From NCBI GenBank assembly GCA_949130485.1, contig OX422194.1, forward strand, positions 645,461 to 709,460: a stretch of 64,000 bases of DNA. Reading direction: 5' to 3'. Position 1 is the stretch's first letter. The number at the start of each line of letters is the position of its first letter. This stretch comes from Agelas oroides. Its lineage: Eukaryota; Porifera; Demospongiae; Agelasida; Agelasidae. Made by a program: the position numbers and the translations under genes. Below are positions 44,862-55,505 of this stretch, one piece after another. The notes beneath the pieces are model-generated. The model was not told the origin of the DNA, ran no database searches, and saw nothing but the letters and a program-made list of their open reading frames with translations.

Positions 44862-45174
44862 CTTGGACTTTGGCTTCTAAGCTTTTAAAATACCTTTCGT
44901 TTAGTTCTTGACAGTCCACTTCCAGGACGAATCGACCTCTCTCTCCCTCTCTAACTTCTAGCTTTCAGGAGCGGTGGTCCGCCTTCAAAGATGTAGTGAG
45001 GACCGCGAATTTCTCACCGCCATAGTACGGCTGTACATGCCCTAAATTAAAGTACACTACGTATATTTGTCAAACAACGTGGCCGGATGTAATTATTAGT
45101 CTTACACCGGAAATGAAGAATGCTTAAAATTTGCGTAGGCGTGGTTTGTTTACGTGTGTGAACTGCAGTGGAGG
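44862..45174. promoter_or_regulatory. Divergent promoter region, DOT1L / ITIH-like A
   Basis: The 313 bp separate the two starts. An ETS-like ACCGGAAAT lies about 70 bp before the ITIH-like start, within the only part of this promoter (from about 45100) that was copied with the tandem duplicate. Confidence 0.6.
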
Positions 45175-48100
45175 ATGAAGCTGCTTGGTCTGCTGCAATT
45201 ATTCGCCATTGTTTTGGCCCTGGAGGCCGCCCGAGTATCCCCTAGGCAGGCCCCGACCATCGTCTACCAGCAGTTCCATATCGATTCGCTGATTGTCGCG
45301 AGGTATGCCACTACACGGATCTCTAGCATCGTGCGCAACGATGCTGATGAATCGCAGGAGCTCTCCTTTCGAGTTCAGCTGCCTGAAACTGCTTTCATCT
45401 CAAACTTCACCATGTGAGTAATTGCTCAACCGTAGCGGTATCAGGAGCTCCTGACATTATCATGAGGAGGGTATATTTATTTATCTATGATTAATTGCTT
45501 TGCCATGAACTTTGCAGATTATGTACCTAACGATATTCTCATAATCCATCGTATTTTGCTGAGTCTTACTTACACTGAGAAATTTAACACCAATGTAATG
45601 TCTCTGATATTATTTGCTGGCCTAGTACATGTCACCAGAGGGTGCATCGAGCCGTCCCTTCGGCAGCTGGATGTGCCTTTGATGACATGTATACTCTGCT
45701 CACAGGACTGTGAATGGCACAACCTACCATGGTGTGGCTGAAGAGAGAGCAAGAGCTGTTCAAGAGTTTGAAAATCGTCAGCAGGCGGGGGAAAATGTTG
45801 GACTGGTGGAGTCACGGTACGTACTGCAGAAGATTTATATCCATAACTGAAGAAGAAGACTTATATCCATAACTGCATACATTGAGTAACTTTGGTTCTC
45901 TTCTCCAATGATACAGGGGCACTGATCTATTCCAGATTCGCATCAACACAGCTGCTAGTTCTACGGCTACTTTTGTAATTCAGTACGAGGAACTGATTCT
46001 CAGGCAACTGAGCAAATACCGCCAAACCGTTAATCTTAACCCCGGGAGCAAAGTTGAAAATTTTACTGCCACCGTACGAGCCATTGAAGAACAGGGAATC
46101 ACCTTCACCAATGCCTCGAGCTTTGTAGGTATTCAGAGGGTCTCTTCCCAAGAGGTTCTGTTCTCCTTCTCTCCCTCAATGAACGAACAAAATGACGGTA
46201 GTTTCGGCCTTGCAAGAGACATGATTGTGGAATATGATGTCAACCGCCCTCCCGTTAGTGATCGCAATGCTGGGCTGTTTATCGTAAATGATTGCCATTT
46301 TGCTCAATTTTTTTCACCCTCTGGTGCCAGTAGGTTGCCAGTAGATATAGTATTTGTTATTGATGTATCAGGCTCCATGAGTGGTAGGAAGATTGAACAG
46401 ACTAGGGAAGCACTTGTGACGATCATCAATCAGCTTGGAACAGAGGATCGATTTAGCATGGTGACTTTTGAGTCTAATGTTAACAACTGGAGGGATGTCC
46501 TGGTTTCAGTTAGTGAGTTCCGCCAGCAAGGAATTCAGTTTGCAAGGAGCTTGAGTGCTGGTGGGAGCACAAACTTTGATGGTGGGGTTCAAAATGGAGC
46601 TCAGATTCTGAGGAATGAAGGCAATGTAAACCGAGTCCAGTTGCTTGTTGTGCTTACCGATGGTCAGCCAACTGCAGGTGTGACCAATCCAGATCAGATT
46701 GTGGCAAATGCTAGGACGACACTTGCTGGCACTCAGATCTCCCTGAACTGTCTGGGGTTTGGCTTGAACTTGAACTTTGAACTGTTGGCGAGATTATCAT
46801 TGGCTAACAAGGGCATTGTGAGGCGTATCTACGAAGGATTTGACGCAGCCTCTCAACTCGAGGGATTCTTTGAAGAAATATCGCAGCCAATTCTGCGAAA
46901 CATTATCATTGGGTATCCACCAAATTCATATGAGAGTATTTCCCAAACAACATTCCCACTGTTGTTTAATGGTTCTGAGCTTGTTGTTGCAGGAAAGTTT
47001 TCGGATAATTTGTGTAGCAGCTCTCAGACGATATCAATTAATGTGACAGGCACTGGTGCTTCAAATCAACTTGTATTTGTAAGCCAAGTTCAAACGAATA
47101 GCGAAACTCGAGTTGTTGGACGGAAACCTTCAACCGAGCGCCTTGCTGCCTACCTCTCCATCCTACAGCTAATAGACCAAATCACCATCACCACCGATGA
47201 GAGGGAGTCTGCAGCCATTAAGCAGAAAGCAATCGAACAGGCACTGCGGTACAACTTTGTGACAGAGCTGACTTCACTGATTGTTGTCGAGGAGAGCGGG
47301 AGTAACTTTACCTTGGGCGAAGGTGGTGGGCCGGGTACAACAGAGAATGGCGGTCTTCAGAATTTTGGAGGTCAGAAATTTAGGATAACACATTCATGTA
47401 CAAGATGTGCCAGGTACACATGTGCCTGCAGCCTTTCATTTTTTATTAGATTGCAAGCATTCCTTGAAGTTTTCTTATAGAACAGTCAGAGTTCTGTTCA
47501 CTGCAGAGAAAATAGCCAAGTCTTCTGCCTCCGAGGTTATAAACAAGAATTCCATTGCTCTATAGCCGTGTGTTTGTCCCGTTTTTTGACAAGTATAGTT
47601 CCTATTCTCAACACTCAAAAATATGTTGGTGTGAGTGACATGACATAAATGTGTTTTATAATGAAGGGCCAGACAGTATATAGTACCAGTGTCGCTGTAA
47701 TTAACTTTAACTAAATACTATTTAGCAAGCTAGGCTTTTTAAAGCAGTCAGAGACATTTTTAACGATTGTCGAATGAATTTTAAAACCGGCTCACTGTGA
47801 TTGTGACTCTAGCCTTGTTCCTGGCCCAGGCTACCAACTTCCTTTGACCTCCAGTGTGCTAAATGGCCAAGAGTGCATAAAGAACGGGCAGCTAGAGTAA
47901 GAGCGTGTAACTCCGTAAAATTTGAGACCAACCAGAATTTACTGTCAGTACTAAAAATAGTAACACGTACTGCACATGCTGTGTAACAGCCAATCTTGTT
48001 ACAGCACATGACTGGGTGTTCTATTTTTAGTACGGTTCAATAATTTTGCCTGGACTATGGGCTTCTATTGGAGTTACATGCTCTTACTCTAGCCGCCCAT

Positions 48101-48282
48101 TCTTATGCGCTCTCAAGGAGCCTATAGTCATTAATTTTGTGTATGACTGATGGTTACTGATGGTTACTGCAGTTCCATTTCCTGCAGCTAGAGGTGGAAG
48201 TATGGGCATTGCTCTTACAGTAAAGGCCCTCATGCTCCTACTGCTTGGCAGCCTGGTCTGTTTGTACCTTTTCATTTTCTGA
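45175..48282 (+). CDS. ITIH-like protein A: VIT + vWA domains, hydrophobic C-terminus
   Basis: Exons 45175-45413, 45706-45816, 45917-47370 and 48173-48282 give 637 aa. A signal peptide (LLQLFAIVLALEA) precedes a VIT domain (about residues 35-160; FRVQLPETAFISNFTM, NGTTYHGVAEERARA) and a vWA domain (about 257-440) with a full MIDAS: DVSGS at 266-270, T335, D365. The last exon gives a short linker and a hydrophobic end (ALTVKALMLLLLGSLVC...LFIF) running to the stop, as in GPI-attachment signals. Family members are secreted heavy chains that bind hyaluronan; the usual ITIH C-terminal domain is not seen. The exon 3 donor is GTCAGA, weak but also used elsewhere here. Without that splice the frame ends at 47480. 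Compared with copy B the last exon lacks about 54 bp, and its intron holds a MITE. Confidence 0.85.
47868..48113. mobile_element. MITE, family C, in ITIH-like A intron 3
   Basis: Ends CAAGAGTGCATAAAGAACGG and its inverse (TTCTTATGCGCTCT), matching the element at 5410-5672. The duplicate gene has an empty site at the corresponding place (about 51755-51775). Confidence 0.88.
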
Positions 48283-48531
48283 ATTGATGCTGGACTTGTT
48301 ACTGCACTGTAGTAGCAGTTTTATTTTTATACCACCATGTACTCATTTGAGATCAGTTGGCATATTCAGTTTGTGATCCCTCTCCCAATGCTGTTTGCTT
48401 TTATGTGTATGATCCATAGACCAAAGACATGAACTATGATCTATAGACCAAAGACATGAACTAACTACTGCCACTAACTACATAGCTAATAAACGGCATG
48501 CGCACAATATCACGGAAACACGATAAACAAC

Positions 48532-48690
48532 ATGGCGGCTGCAGCAGCCACTCAGAAAGAAAAAGAACCAGTGAACATCGTTCACCAGAATGCCATTTTC
48601 TGTGAGACTATTCTAAAAGAGCAGAGGCATCAGAAACTCTACACCAGCTATGGTGTGAACCCATACAAAAAGAGCATGGCTTTTTCTTAG
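48532..48690 (+). pseudogene. Relic CFAP144 exon 1 from the tandem duplication
   Basis: Codons for the first 47 residues (MAAAAATQKEKEPVNIVH...) nearly match intact exon 1 at 52289-52430, but the donor changed from GTAAGC to GCATGG and the frame stops after KSMAFS. Exons 2 and 3 are absent. The RFX X-box upstream is also damaged. Confidence 0.93.
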
Positions 48691-48907
48691 AAACTGTTTT
48701 CAGTTGAGTAGGTGAAATGGCACATTTTGAGTAGGCAAAATGGGAGTAGGCGAAATGGCACCAAACCTCAGTTAGGTGAGAGGTTGCTCAATGCTTACGT
48801 GTATTTTTTTTATCCATGGTCTTACACCGGAAATGAGGAATGCAATTTGCGTAGGCGTGGTTTGTTTATGCATGGTTTATGTGTGTGAACGCAGTGGTGA
48901 GTTGAGG

Positions 48908-51900
48908 ATGAAGCTGCTTGGTGTGCTGCAATTATTCGCCATTGTTTTGGCCCTGGAGGCCGCCCGAGTATCCCCTAGGCAGGCCCCGACCATCGTCTAC
49001 CAGCAGTTCCATATCGATTCGCTGATTGTCGCGAGGTATGCCACTACACGGATCTCTAGCATCGTGCGCAACGATGCTGATGAATCGCAGGAGCTCTCCT
49101 TTCGAGTTCAGCTGCCTGAAACTGCTTTCATCTCAAACTTCACCATGTGAGTAATTGCTCAACCGTAGCAATATCAGGAGCTCCTGACATTATCATAGAT
49201 AAGGAGGGTATATTTATTTATCTATGATTAATTGCTTATTTATGAGTGCTTTGCAAATTATGTGCCGATATTCTCATAATCCATCATATAACTAGGTGAG
49301 TCTTACTTACACTAATGTCTCTGATATTATTTGCTGGCCTAGTACCATGTCATCAATGGCACATCAAGCCGTCCCTTCGGCAGCTTGATGTGCCCTTGAT
49401 GACATGTATACTCTGATCACAGGACTGTGAATGGCACAACCTACCATGGTGTGGCTGAAGAGAGAGCAAGAGCTGTTCAAGAGTTTGAAAATCGTCAGCA
49501 GGCGGGGGAAAATGTTGGACTGGTGGAGTCACGGTACGTACTGCAGAAAATTTATATCCATAACTGCATACATAGAGTAACTTTGATTCTCTTCTCCATT
49601 GATACAGGGGCACAGATCTATTCCAGATTCGCATCAACACAGCTGCTAGTTCTACGGCTACTTTTGTAATTCAGTATGAGGAACTGATTCTCAGGCAACT
49701 GAGCAAATACCGCCAAACCATTAATCTTAACCCCGGGAGCAAAGTTGAAAATTTTACTGCCACCGTACGAGCTGTTGAAGAACAGAGAATCACCTTCACC
49801 AATGCCTCAAGTTTTGTAGGTATTCAGAGGGTCTCTTCCCAAGAGGTTCTGTTCTCCTTCTCTCCCTCAATGAACGAACAAAATGATGGTAGTTTTGGCC
49901 TCGCAAGAGACATGATTGTAGAGTATGATGTCAACCGCCCTCCCGTTAGTGATCGCAATGCTGGGCTGTTTATCGTAAATGATTGCCATTTTGCTCAATT
50001 TTTTTCACCCTCTGGTGCCAGTAGGTTGCCAGTAGATATAGTATTTGTTATTGATGTATCAGGCTCCATGAGTGGTAGAAAGATTGAACAGACTAGGGAA
50101 GCACTTGTGACGATCATCAATCAGCTTGGAACAGAGGATCGATTTAGCATGGTGACATTTGGGTCTAATGTTAACAACTGGAGGGATGTCCTGGTTTCAG
50201 TTAGCGAGTTCCGCCAGCAAGGAATTCAGTTTGCAAGGAGCTTGAGTGCTGGTGGGAGCACAAACTTTGATGGTGGGGTTCAAAATGGAGCTCAGATTCT
50301 GAGGAATGAAGGCAATATAAACCGAGTCCAGTTGCTTGTTGTACTTACTGATGGTCAGCCAACTGCAGGTGTGACCAATCCAGATCAGATTGTGGCAAAT
50401 GCTAGGATGACACTTGCTGGCACTCAGATCTCCCTGAACTGTCTGGGGTTTGGCTTGAACTTGAACTTTGAACTGTTGGCGAGATTATCCCTGGCTAACA
50501 AGGGCATTGTGAGGCGTATCTATGAAGGATTAGATGCAGCCTCTCAACTCGAGGGATTCTTTGAAGAAATATCACAGCCAATTCTGCGAAACATTATCAT
50601 TGGGTATCCACCAAATTCATATGAGAGTATTTCCCAAACAACATTCCCACTATTGTTTAATGGTTCTGAGCTTGTTGTTGCAGGAAAGTTTTCAGATAAT
50701 TTGTGTAGCAGCTCTCAGACGATATCAATTAATGTGACAGGCACTGGTGCTTCAAATCAACTTGTATTTGTAAGCCAAGTTCAAGCGAATAGCGAAACTC
50801 AAGTTGTTGGACGGAAACCTTCAACCGAACGCCTCGCTGCCTACCTCTCAATCCAACAGCTAATAGACCAAATCACCATCACCACCGATGAGAGGGAGTC
50901 TGCAGCCATTAAGCAGAAAGCAATCGAACAGGCACTGCAGTACAACTTTGTGACAGAGCTGACTTCACTGATTGTCGTGGAGGAGAGCGGGAGTAACTTT
51001 ACCTTGGGCGAAGGTGGTGGGCCGGGTACAACAGAGGATGGTGGTGTTCGGACTAGTGGAGGTCAGAAATTTGAAATTTAGGATAACAATCATGTTGGTT
51101 TTCTAATACAAGATGTGCCAGGTACGCATGACAGTAATGTGCCTGCAGCCTTTCATTTTTATTAGATTGGAGCATTCCTTTTCCAATTAAAGGTTTCTTA
51201 TAGAACAGTCAGAGTTCTGTTTGTTCGCTAAGAATATACCGCAGGGAAAAGGGTTAAGTCTTCTGCCTCCCAGGTTATAAACAACAAAGTGCACTTGCAA
51301 AAGAATTCCGTTGCTCTATAGCCGTGTGTTTGTCCAGTTTTTGACAAGTATAGTCCTTTTTCACAGATTGTTCTCACCACTCCAGTTTCCATGGTAGTAC
51401 ATCATGCCTAGAATGGAAAGAAAGTTCCTTGTTAGCTACCAACTTAAAATTAACATCATATTGGAAGTCAAAAGTATGTTGATGTGAGTGGCATGACATA
51501 CATGTAAATGGGTTGTATAATGAAGGGCCAGACGGTATATAGTACCAGTGTTAACTTTAACTAAATACTTTTTAGCATGGCCTTTTAAAGCATAAACTCT
51601 ATACTAAAACAACACTGTGGGGAAAATTCAAGAGTCTACATTGTACACAATAAGTCGGAGACATTTAATGATTGTCGGTTGAAACCTGTGACTCTAGCCT
51701 TGTTCCCTGGCCCTTAAGTGTATGGGGCTAACAACGTCGTTTGACCTCAAGTGTGCTAAATGCTAAGAAAGGAACCTATAGTCATTAATTTTGTGTATGA
51801 CTGATGGTTACTGCAGGTGCTTCAGTTCCAGGTGGCCCAGTTCCTGCACGACCAGCTGTAGGAGGTGGTAATCAATTCATCACCGCATTTGGTGGAAGTA

Positions 51901-51980
51901 TGGGCATTGCTCTTACAGTAAAGGCCCTCATGCTCCTACTGCTTGGCAGCCTGGTCTGCGTGTACCTTTTCATTTTCTGA
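48908..51980 (+). CDS. ITIH-like protein B, tandem duplicate of A
   Basis: Exons 48908-49146, 49423-49533, 49608-51061 and 51817-51980 give 655 aa. Exon lengths equal copy A except for the last. The proteins differ at only a handful of sites (for example L6V, IEEQG to VEEQR, TFES to TFGS, NART to NARM, YEGF to YEGL, plus changes around TTEDGGVRTS). Signal peptide, VIT and a vWA with intact MIDAS are kept. The linker in the last exon is longer (SVPGGPVPARPAVGGG) before the same hydrophobic tail. An in-frame stop at 51079-51081 and ATTAAA at about 51190 inside intron 3 would allow a shorter form without the tail. Its upstream region differs from copy A beyond about 75 bp. Confidence 0.86.
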
Positions 51981-52262
51981 ATTGATGCTGGACATTTTAC
52001 TGCACTGTGGCAATTTTATTTTTATACCACCTTGTACTCATTTGAGATCAGTTGGCATATTCAGTTTGTCATCCCTCTCCCAATACTGTTTGCTTTTATG
52101 ATCCATAGACCAAAGACATGAACTAGCCTCTTGGCATGACTATTTGCATTTGTTTTGGTATGTTACGTTGTCTCATCAGCTCAGATGCATCGGGATGAGT
52201 CTTCCGCGTCACGCGCGCCGCGCCCGCATGCACTGTAATAAGCGGCGCGCGCACAATATCAG

Positions 52263-52276
52263 GTTTCCGTGGAAAC
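52263..52276 (+). promoter_or_regulatory. RFX X-box upstream of CFAP144
   Basis: GTTTCCGTGGAAAC fits the X-box consensus RYYNYY-N(1-3)-RRNRAC exactly and is a perfect palindrome around the GT spacer. It lies 12 bp before the ATG of a ciliary gene, a usual place for RFX control. The relic copy has lost the left half. Confidence 0.85.
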
Positions 52277-52288
52277 ACGATAAACAAC

Positions 52289-52883
52289 ATGGCGGCTGCA
52301 GCAGCCACTCAGAAAGAAAAGGAACCAGTGAACATCGTTCACCAGAATGCCATTTTCTGCGAGACTATTCTAAAAGAGCAGAGGCATCAGAAACTCTACA
52401 CCAGCTATGGTGTGAACCCATACAAAAAGAGTAAGCAGTCAACTTCACCCAAGCAAGTTTTGAACTAGAACTAGGAAACTCAGTTAGGTGAGAGGTTGCT
52501 CATGCTTCTATTTCTTTGACAGTGTACATGCTTGCTGGCAAACCAAACTCACAACATGACTCAGCGGATGGAGTGGAAGATGGTAAGAGTGTACAACGTA
52601 TTCTATAGGCTACTACAGGCTGGTCTGTGACCATACAAGAAATGACTCTTGTGTCCATTCTACAGAGAAATTTCTGGAGGTGTATAAAAAGGCCCAGGAA
52701 ACACCTCAGAAGAAGCACACCTTCCCTCAGACAGAGGCTCAGGAAATAGGTTGGGACACTACTCCTCTCGTCGACCCACAAAGGCACGACTCACGGCTTC
52801 ATCATCCCAGGAGAAACTCAGAAATCACAAAGTACATGGATGCAGCATGGAGACAGAAGGAACAAGAAGATCTCCAGCAGTAA
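52289..52883 (+). CDS. CFAP144: CFAP144 (FAM183), ciliary doublet microtubule inner protein
   Basis: Exons 52289-52430, 52523-52582 and 52666-52883 give 139 aa, close to human FAM183A (134). Matching motifs: YTSYGVNPYKK, LAGKPNSQHD, FLEVYKKAQETPQKK, EAQEIGWDTTPLVDPQRHD and ITKYMDAAW. The family binds inside ciliary doublet microtubules. The start is the ATG after a GC-rich leader and an X-box. ATTAAA at 52902-52907 is a likely polyadenylation signal. It follows ITIH-like B on the same strand by 309 bp. Confidence 0.93.
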
Positions 52884-53201: not shown

Positions 53202-55505
53202 CTAATGCTTCACTCGAGATCTCATTTTCTGTCTTCTAGCTTTGCCAAGTCTTTTTGCCTTCTTTCCAGCCATTGGCTTCTTGGGTTTGCTGTGCTTGGC
53301 GGAGCTGAAAGAACTCATGTCTGCACTGGAGTTAGCAGTGTTGCTCTTCATCCAGCGTTTCTTGCCACCAAAACCAAACTTTGTGTTCTAAGTCCAAGAT
53401 AAACACAGTCAGTTTCAAGAATAATAAACCTAAAACAATGACTTGCATACAACAAAAATTGGTTATGATGGCTAGTTCATTTTGTTGAAATGCTGCATGA
53501 CAACATCAGAAACATCATCATCATGCATTCTAGCCTCATTCCCAGTCCTCCACCACAGCTATCGTCGCTTGCAGTACGAATAACACAGAGAAGGCCTGGT
53601 ACAAATTATCAGGTAATGTATGCCACTGTCTATGTCATGGCTAAACAGGAAGTTAGTTACAAGCGACAATAGCTATGGTGGAGGACTGGGTACGAGGCTA
53701 CATGCATTCTTGACCATACGTACTTCAGTGTAAAATTTACAGCATTACACACTTCACAATTTGTAGCTAGGAGTCCAGTTACCTTCACCTGTCTTTTCTT
53801 AGACATTGGTCTCTCAAATTTTCTCTTTGTAGCAGGCTTGCCCTCCTTCTCTGCCACAATTGGGAAATCATCATCGTCCTCCCTCTGTATAAAGGCTGGT
53901 TTCTCCCCTTTACCTGTGGAGAACAATCCAGCAATGAAAGGAGAAAAACTGGTTGTTGATTCATCTTTGCCAGTGGTCGCCCAAAATCAACCTGTTCACA
54001 AGCTCATCCCCATTCCGTACCTGTTCACAAGCTCATCCCCATTCTGTTTGTTGTTGTACCTTCTGTTAGCTGAAAACATCTCAGGAATGTGGTTGTTTAA
54101 CATTCATCTTTTGTGCTTTGCAGCTCAAGCATGATGAAATCTTCACTAAATGCTCATGAGATATTCACGATCTACCTGCAAATCCAGAAGAGTACATTTA
54201 CAACTCGATCAAACACACCTTTTCTGAACCTCTTGACAGCCTCAATAGCCACCTTCTTCTCTTCCCTTCTCTTCTGCAAGATTTCTTGTTGGACCTAACA
54301 ATGAGGTTATTACATGCATAGTTTGTGTTACACTCACTAGTAACACCATCACCATCTTACCTTCTTACCATACTTCTTCAGTTCTCTGAGTTTTCTTGCC
54401 TTCTCCTTCTGTTCCAAACCCTTCTGTCGGCTCAGCAAACTCTCCCTCACCTACATTTTGTACATAATACATACCCAGTGGCTCGATACATACCGGTATG
54501 ACCCGTGCAAAGGCATATTACCTTTCTCATGTGGTCATCTGTTTTGACCATCTCTGCAAAATAGTCATCTGGTCTTTGTGTTGGGATTCCTAACTCCTCT
54601 AGTTTTCTGAGTCCAACAGAAGCAGCCCACTGTGCTTGCCGGTAACTAGAGCAGAGAGACCACCTCACTATAATCAAATTCTCCCAACTTCCAAGAGGGA
54701 TCCTAGAGCTTACAAGTGCATCTCTCTCCCAAAGTCATCATCTGGGTCAACTGTCTCTTCCCCCTCCTTTCCCTCCACTGTACCTGACCCACTAGCAGAT
54801 GGGGATACTACAACATCCATCCTCTCCAACCAGTCTAGCTCCTTTCTCCTCAGCAATGCAAGCTGCTCACGAAGTCCCGACTGATTTATAAAGAGCAACA
54901 AAAGTTCATCTTTCAATATTTCTGATTGATCACTTACTAGTCTCACTCTTAGGCTTTCCCACTGTTCAGTTTTTGATCATTGACCATTAGCCTCGTAAAA
55001 ACAGAGGGGAATGCCTGGGAGATTTTAATGATGTCAATGTCTACCTAGATAGACAGAGAAGGTGAGGAGTTTCAACCAAGAAAATGTATTTCATGCTTGC
55101 ATGCATCCTCAGGCCTAGACAAGGAGTGGTACATTTTCACAAATGTTGTGGAAATGCATCTAATTTCCAAGGCCTTCCCTCTCTTTTTCCAAACCACAAG
55201 TGATCAAAAGCTGGATGGTAAGAAGGCCTCAGAATGAGGTTCATCACTTACAACATTGTTCGTGTAGGTCTTTGGTGGAGCTGCTCTAGTCAGGAGTCCT
55301 GGCTTCAACCTTCCTTTGGAAAACTCTGATTGCAACTGGAAAGATTAGGCACCAATCAACATGTCAAAGAACAACCTCATACATTCTAAACTAAAGTAAA
55401 CTTACAAGTAAAGCACAGAATGCAAGACCTAGATTATTATACCTCTTCATCACTACTCAGTTCAGAAGAAGAAGAAGAGCTCTGTTCTTCGTGTTCAAGC
55501 TCCAT
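53202..55505 (-). CDS. EBNA1BP2: EBNA1BP2 / EBP2, nucleolar ribosome biogenesis factor
   Basis: Eight exons: 55505-55443, 55335-55252, 54880-54714, 54645-54522, 54450-54361, 54294-54219, 53913-53783, 53387-53202; 306 aa, the length I recall for the human protein. Motifs: KGRLKPGLL, KELDWLERMDV, TVDPDDDFGREMHFYRQAQ, IPTQRPDDYFAEMVK, RKLRELKKYGKKVQQEILQKR, NTKFGFGGKKRWMK and a Lys/Arg-rich nucleolar tail (KKAKRLGKARRQKM). The N-terminus is acidic and Ser-rich. EBP2 acts in processing of the 27S pre-rRNA and 60S assembly. An in-frame ATG at 55520 would add MSHVC; the shorter start is preferred but not proven. Confidence 0.95.
53531..53700. mobile_element. MITE, family A (170 bp)
   Basis: Ends TAGCCTCATTCCCAGTCC and GGACTGGGTACGAGGCTA, subterminal CCACAGCTATCGTCGCTTG inverted on the other side. 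Exact 9-bp duplication CATGCATTC at 53522-53530 and 53701-53709. It lies in the last intron of EBNA1BP2. Confidence 0.93.

Follow-up and report, generated by a model that had tools for sequence, protein, structure and literature searches.

The window, which is the whole 64-kb stretch of Agelas oroides DNA that was analysed, contains an intact CFAP144 gene with a palindrome shortly before its start codon. On its upstream side, and reaching into its intron 1, lie two tandem copies of a unit that carries a gene with VIT and VWA domains and the 5' end of CFAP144. The features are as follows.

45099..48798, plus strand: left copy of the tandem duplication, comprising the VIT/VWA gene followed by promoter and exon 1 of CFAP144; its right end is approximate
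48514..48519, no strand assigned: GGAAAC, the half-site that the relic promoter retains; this promoter has 8 bp fewer than that of CFAP144 and one mismatch
48523..48529, plus strand: ATAAACA, a forkhead-like core by its sequence, kept in the relic
48532..48690, plus strand: relic CFAP144 exon 1, with the splice donor changed from GT to GC at 48674-48675
48819..52505, plus strand: second (right) tandem copy, which extends into the intact CFAP144 as far as the intron 1 breakpoint; its right end is likewise approximate
48908..51980, plus strand: gene resembling inter-alpha-trypsin heavy chains (VIT + VWA) in the right copy; its ATG follows that of the relic by 376 bp
52263..52276, no strand assigned: GTTTCCGTGGAAAC (exact match), an X-box-like 6-2-6 inverted repeat, best read as an RFX dimer site
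52280..52286, plus strand: ATAAACA, a forkhead-like core 3 bp after the palindrome (weak statistics)
52289..52883, plus strand: CFAP144 (FAM183) gene, 139 aa, exons 52289-52430, 52523-52582 and 52666-52883

The three coding exons of CFAP144 are joined via GT/AG introns, and the product matches PDB chain 8snb_1Y (E 6.3e-57) and Pfam PF14886 (E 1.4e-39). A search of the genome at E <= 0.001 gave four matches, namely the three exons of the intact gene and the one relic exon. The gene downstream of GTTTCCGTGGAAAC is thereby a ciliary gene. The preliminary description had placed the 14-mer 12 bp 5' of the CFAP144 ATG, and the exact sequence match confirmed this position relative to the ATG at 52289; an exact search of the 64-kb window found no second GTTTCCGTGGAAAC.

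Half-sites of the palindrome and RFX factors of the genome

GTTTCCGTGGAAAC consists of two inverted half-sites, GTTTCC and GGAAAC, separated by GT, which lies within the spacing of 0-3 bp of an X-box. It had been called a perfect X-box. The 6-2-6 palindrome is indeed perfect, but both half-sites depart from GTTRCY at position 4; T replaces the purine in the left half, and the right half has A where this position is mirrored. The RFX consensus is given as GTNRCC N0-3 RGYAAC, with the half-site GTTRCY, in the available part of PMC10530576, and GTTTCCGTGGAAAC fails this strict form at one position per half. It fits RYYNYY N1-3 RRNRAC, which the part of PMC2375033 at hand presents as the most degenerate published form of the X-box. 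Our literature search found no paper that joins GTTTCCATGG with the X-box, and no composite of RFX, FOXJ1 and X-box.

A profile search with PF02257 revealed six exon matches at four places in the genome (C12, C2 twice and C11), the best of which was on C12 (1.6e-22). The RFX domain of C12 matched human RFX1 (1dp7) at 2.3e-39; of the 74 residues aligned, 61 are identical. As judged by these alignments, the genome encodes RFX factors with a DNA-binding domain of the RFX1/2/3 type. Next to the palindrome, ATAAACA at 52280-52286 fits RYAAAYA, which we take to be the forkhead core. RTAAACA occurred 3 times in 1680 bp near 28 palindromes, including that of CFAP144 itself, versus 12 times in 27,692 bp away from them; this count is post hoc and small, and a forkhead composite was therefore dropped as a claim.

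Occurrence of the site across the genome

The exact 14-mer GTTTCCGTGGAAAC has six copies in 259 Mb, where about 1.8 are expected from the base composition of the window. Because the reversed-pattern control has five, the 14-mer as a class is not clearly enriched genome-wide. Two of the six copies precede an ATG by exactly 12 bp, namely that of CFAP144 and that of a five-exon gene at locus L002. The best match of the L002 gene is LRRC34 (9fqr, E 9.1e-29; 8j07, E 2e-26), and the next-best is at 7.5e-22 among many other leucine-rich-repeat proteins. The LRRC34 match begins at exon 2, and exon 1, before which the palindrome stands, is linked to it only by its splice donor and reading phase. LRRC34 is described as an RSP15-type radial-spoke protein in the available part of PMC10721216. 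With 400 to 1000 ciliary genes assumed, the probability of two of six copies falling no more than 50 bp from a ciliary ATG is roughly 9e-8 to 6e-7; both the gene number and the 50-bp limit were set post hoc.

None of the other four exact copies was identified as a ciliary promoter, L001 and L004 having been viewed as sequence and open reading frames only. The reading frame that contains the L005 site has a match to XK-related further along, and the L006 site is in an exon that we presume to be of coatomer beta. A Pfam scan of seven ORFs near sites (L002, L005, L011, L022, L023, L041 and L045), one per locus and a hand-picked part of the loci, revealed no ciliary family; it gave histidine phosphatase, XK-related, FGGY kinase, immunoglobulin and transposase, and nothing for two of the seven.

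We also started from genes rather than from the motif. Five ciliary-type genes were picked by family, tektin (PF03148) and TPH (PF13868); another tektin match, on C4, was under the family cut-off and was left out. The tektin gene on C19 has GTTGCATAGCAAC 68 bp 5' of its ATG, and that on C17 has GTTGCCATGGCAAT 297 bp 5' of its ATG, at a distance of 95 bp from a divergent ORF. On C15, the tektin-like gene has no X-box-like site in the 1.1 kb upstream. For the TPH gene on C6, which we take to be MNS1-like and whose start is uncertain, the 5' flank shows paired half-sites, CATAGCAACTGTTGCTATG, and otherwise only weaker matches at 8 of 10 positions. The start of the TPH gene on C1 was not reached, so its upstream region was not scored. 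In this small sample (n=5), there are thus two genes with a near-palindrome, one with paired half-sites, one with none and one with its start unreached. As for the background, 63.8 kb of the window contain GTTRCN2-4GYAAC once per strand and 164 kb of locus flanks contain it 13 times; the looser X-box score of 8 of 10 is common. For the RFX reading this sample is suggestive: the sites at the C19 and C17 tektin genes speak for it, the genes on C15 and C6 against it. As a separate observation, the region between the tektin gene and the divergent ORF on C17 (L056, C17:533700-534900) with its X-box-like GTTGCCATGGCAAT is a possible bidirectional promoter.

Looser palindromes were far more numerous than their controls genome-wide: 86 versus 5 for GTTTCCRYGGAAAC, 1213 versus 16 for ATGG-centred palindromes and 3806 versus 180 for GTTNCCNNGGNAAC. 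The GTTTCCRYGGAAAC count favours the RFX reading. The GTTNCCNNGGNAAC count was rejected as X-box evidence, since many of the listed matches are GTTGCCTAGGTAAC or its complement. The TAGG-centred palindromes in the fetched loci sit in a repeat; L007-L010 align with one another at length, and L021 does so briefly. Because the A. oroides genome contains this repeat, any X-box count is inflated. Among 38 ATGG-centred rows from fetched loci, 16 have flanks that match those of another row, and two sites were doubly counted because L029 and L030 overlap. As to the repeat itself, it carries its palindromes (GTTACCTAGGCAAC / GTTGCCTAGGTAAC) at L007, L008, L009, L010 and L021, sometimes paired 52 bp apart (L021).

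Placement near an ATG did not distinguish these looser sites. GTTNCCNNGGNAAC followed by ATGGC within 25 bp was found 167 times (once in the reversed control), versus about 172 expected from site count and base composition, and there is no excess genome-wide; ATG-proximal placement is therefore no general rule. Likewise, GTTTCCRYGGAAAC followed by 12 bp and ATG was found in 4 of 172 site flanks versus 2.8 expected (control 1). On both counts, ATG proximity was rejected as a general property of the palindromes.

The preliminary description regarded the X-box as the functional cilia switch. An RFX-type ciliary switch is plausible because of the identity of CFAP144, the RFX factors and the identical site at the identical distance at the LRRC34-like gene, although neither the exact 14-mer nor the two counts near ATGs show an excess. 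GTTTCCGTGGAAAC would most likely be an ordinary ciliary, X-box-like element bound by RFX whose half-sites deviate from the consensus. It is unlikely that a look-alike factor binds the palindrome instead of RFX, for example STAT at TTCCNNGGAA or Su(H)/RBPJ at CGTGGGAA with one mismatch. TTCC-GT-GGAA does fit a STAT-type inverted repeat, and T/A at position 4 departs from the RFX half-site GTTRCY as given in the available part of PMC10530576. However, the outer GT...AC letters are those of the RFX half-site, both copies that stand 12 bp before a gene ATG are at axonemal genes, and RFX genes are present in the genome.

It is quite unlikely that the palindrome arose by chance and has no regulatory role. 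The closeness of the exact 14-mer to its reversed control and the lack of enrichment of the palindrome class before ATGGC are consistent with chance; against it, two of the six copies are equally far from the ATG of an axonemal gene, and only about 0.0004 copies of GTTTCCGTGGAAAC are expected per 64 kb on both strands, given the base composition of the window.

The relic promoter and the tandem duplication

The duplicated promoter was said to have lost the left half-site, and the relic indeed reads CACGGAAAC at 48511-48519, with one half-site. It was also said to be otherwise nearly the same (about 48505-48531). This holds for about 48 bp before the ATG but not for about 110 bp further up; between the copies, 0 of 97 14-bp windows are intact in 52126-52236, which includes a GC-rich stretch, and as few as 4 of 38 in 52237-52288. 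One global alignment of the whole duplication unit leaves 255 of its 1474 noncoding 14-bp windows intact, so that a noncoding 14-bp stretch picked at random has a chance of about 83% of differing between the copies. Drift would therefore usually remove the site, and thus the lost half-site of the relic says little about function. The preliminary description had seen this loss as fitting a relic with no working gene downstream; it does fit a relic, but it does not show that the site works, since neutral decay predicts it.

The left copy does not have exons 2-3 because the duplication breakpoint is in intron 1 of CFAP144. The relic ORF reaches a stop after 52 codons, and with exon 1 only and GC as its donor, the relic has lost the coding capacity for the whole protein and is a CFAP144 pseudogene. 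What leaves the relic without a working gene is the end of the duplication within intron 1 together with the missing splice donor. Between relic exon 1 and the intact exon, 2 of 142 bp differ, and neither change alters the protein (Poisson 0.03 on an assumed change of 5%). This is not claimed as constraint on the relic exon, because the intact copy is itself constrained.

Some other features were observed in this region. A foldback element at 47870-48113, with inverted arms 72% alike, is present by eye only in the left copy; it was inserted there after the duplication or was lost from the right copy. Just past relic exon 1, at 48690-48768, there are short GAGTAGGCGAAATGGCAC-like repeats, where the intact gene has intron sequence. 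The DNA upstream of the right VIT/VWA copy, which is the copy that was scanned with Pfam, is CFAP144 relic DNA. At 53530-53705, an inverted repeat surrounds CCCAGTCCTCCACC ... GGTGGAGGACTGGG, and the adjoining GTACGAGGCTA is also found in L058 and L059; the inverted repeat is perhaps a common mobile element.

Two further readings give the VIT/VWA gene a part. It is very unlikely that RFX sites with GTTTCC halves and a non-AT centre form a sub-class that is placed at start codons, sometimes with a forkhead core, and marks axonemal genes, and that the truncated copy was captured by the non-ciliary VIT/VWA gene and disarmed through the loss of a half-site. That the right-hand VIT/VWA gene took over the relic promoter, half-site loss having freed it from ciliary control, is highly improbable: the relic ATG does lie 376 bp upstream of the VIT/VWA ATG in DNA derived from CFAP144, with the GGAAAC half-site and ATAAACA persisting, but the two VIT/VWA genes have 76-89 bp of proximal flank of their own in common, and the site loss is expected neutrally.

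A probable promoter-proximal RFX site and its known relatives

We conclude that GTTTCCGTGGAAAC is probably a promoter-proximal RFX (X-box-like) site of CFAP144, and that the relic is a truncated duplicate whose half-site was probably lost through decay. An RFX1/2/3-type dimer would bind both inverted half-sites and thereby activate CFAP144 in ciliated cells, perhaps with the help of a forkhead factor bound to the neighbouring ATAAACA. The relic promoter would be the CFAP144 5' end carried along in a tandem duplication of about 3.7 kb of the neighbouring VIT/VWA gene. The duplication itself would have cut the relic off in intron 1, and the half-site would have gone through ordinary decay. On this reading the relic would have lost the 8 bp, and CFAP144 would not have acquired them. 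If GTTTCCGTGGAAAC is bound by RFX, CFAP144 becomes a further ciliary target, one whose site is unusually close to the start, and the RFX programme acts on this gene. The half-lost duplicate promoter would provide a ready reporter pair, yet it is weak as evolutionary evidence because neutral decay alone predicts the loss.

The CFAP144 site resembles those of animal X-box/RFX systems (C. elegans DAF-19, Drosophila RFX and vertebrate RFX2/3) in that an inverted repeat with a 2-bp spacer lies 5' of a ciliary gene, and in that the A. oroides genome has RFX genes. The usual X-box has AT at its centre, whereas the CFAP144 site has GT. The available part of PMC1794439 gives -50 to -200 from the ATG as the preferred position of C. 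elegans X-boxes; the CFAP144 site, at 12 bp, is closer.

A member of the same gene family under a ciliogenic programme is known from mouse and frog, where Fam183b is a FOXJ1 target (PMC6168554). In the available part of that source, FOXJ1 is reported, whereas RFX appears only in the reference list and no RFX site is given; the partly available literature that we searched for CFAP144/FAM183 with RFX contained no report of an RFX site at CFAP144.

Furthermore, the cRFXa system of the choanoflagellate Salpingoeca rosetta likewise joins ciliary promoters with an RFX half-site, since the motif enriched there contains GTTGYCA according to the available part of PMC10530576. That motif resembles a single half-site, whereas the CFAP144 site is a palindrome with GTTTCC halves.
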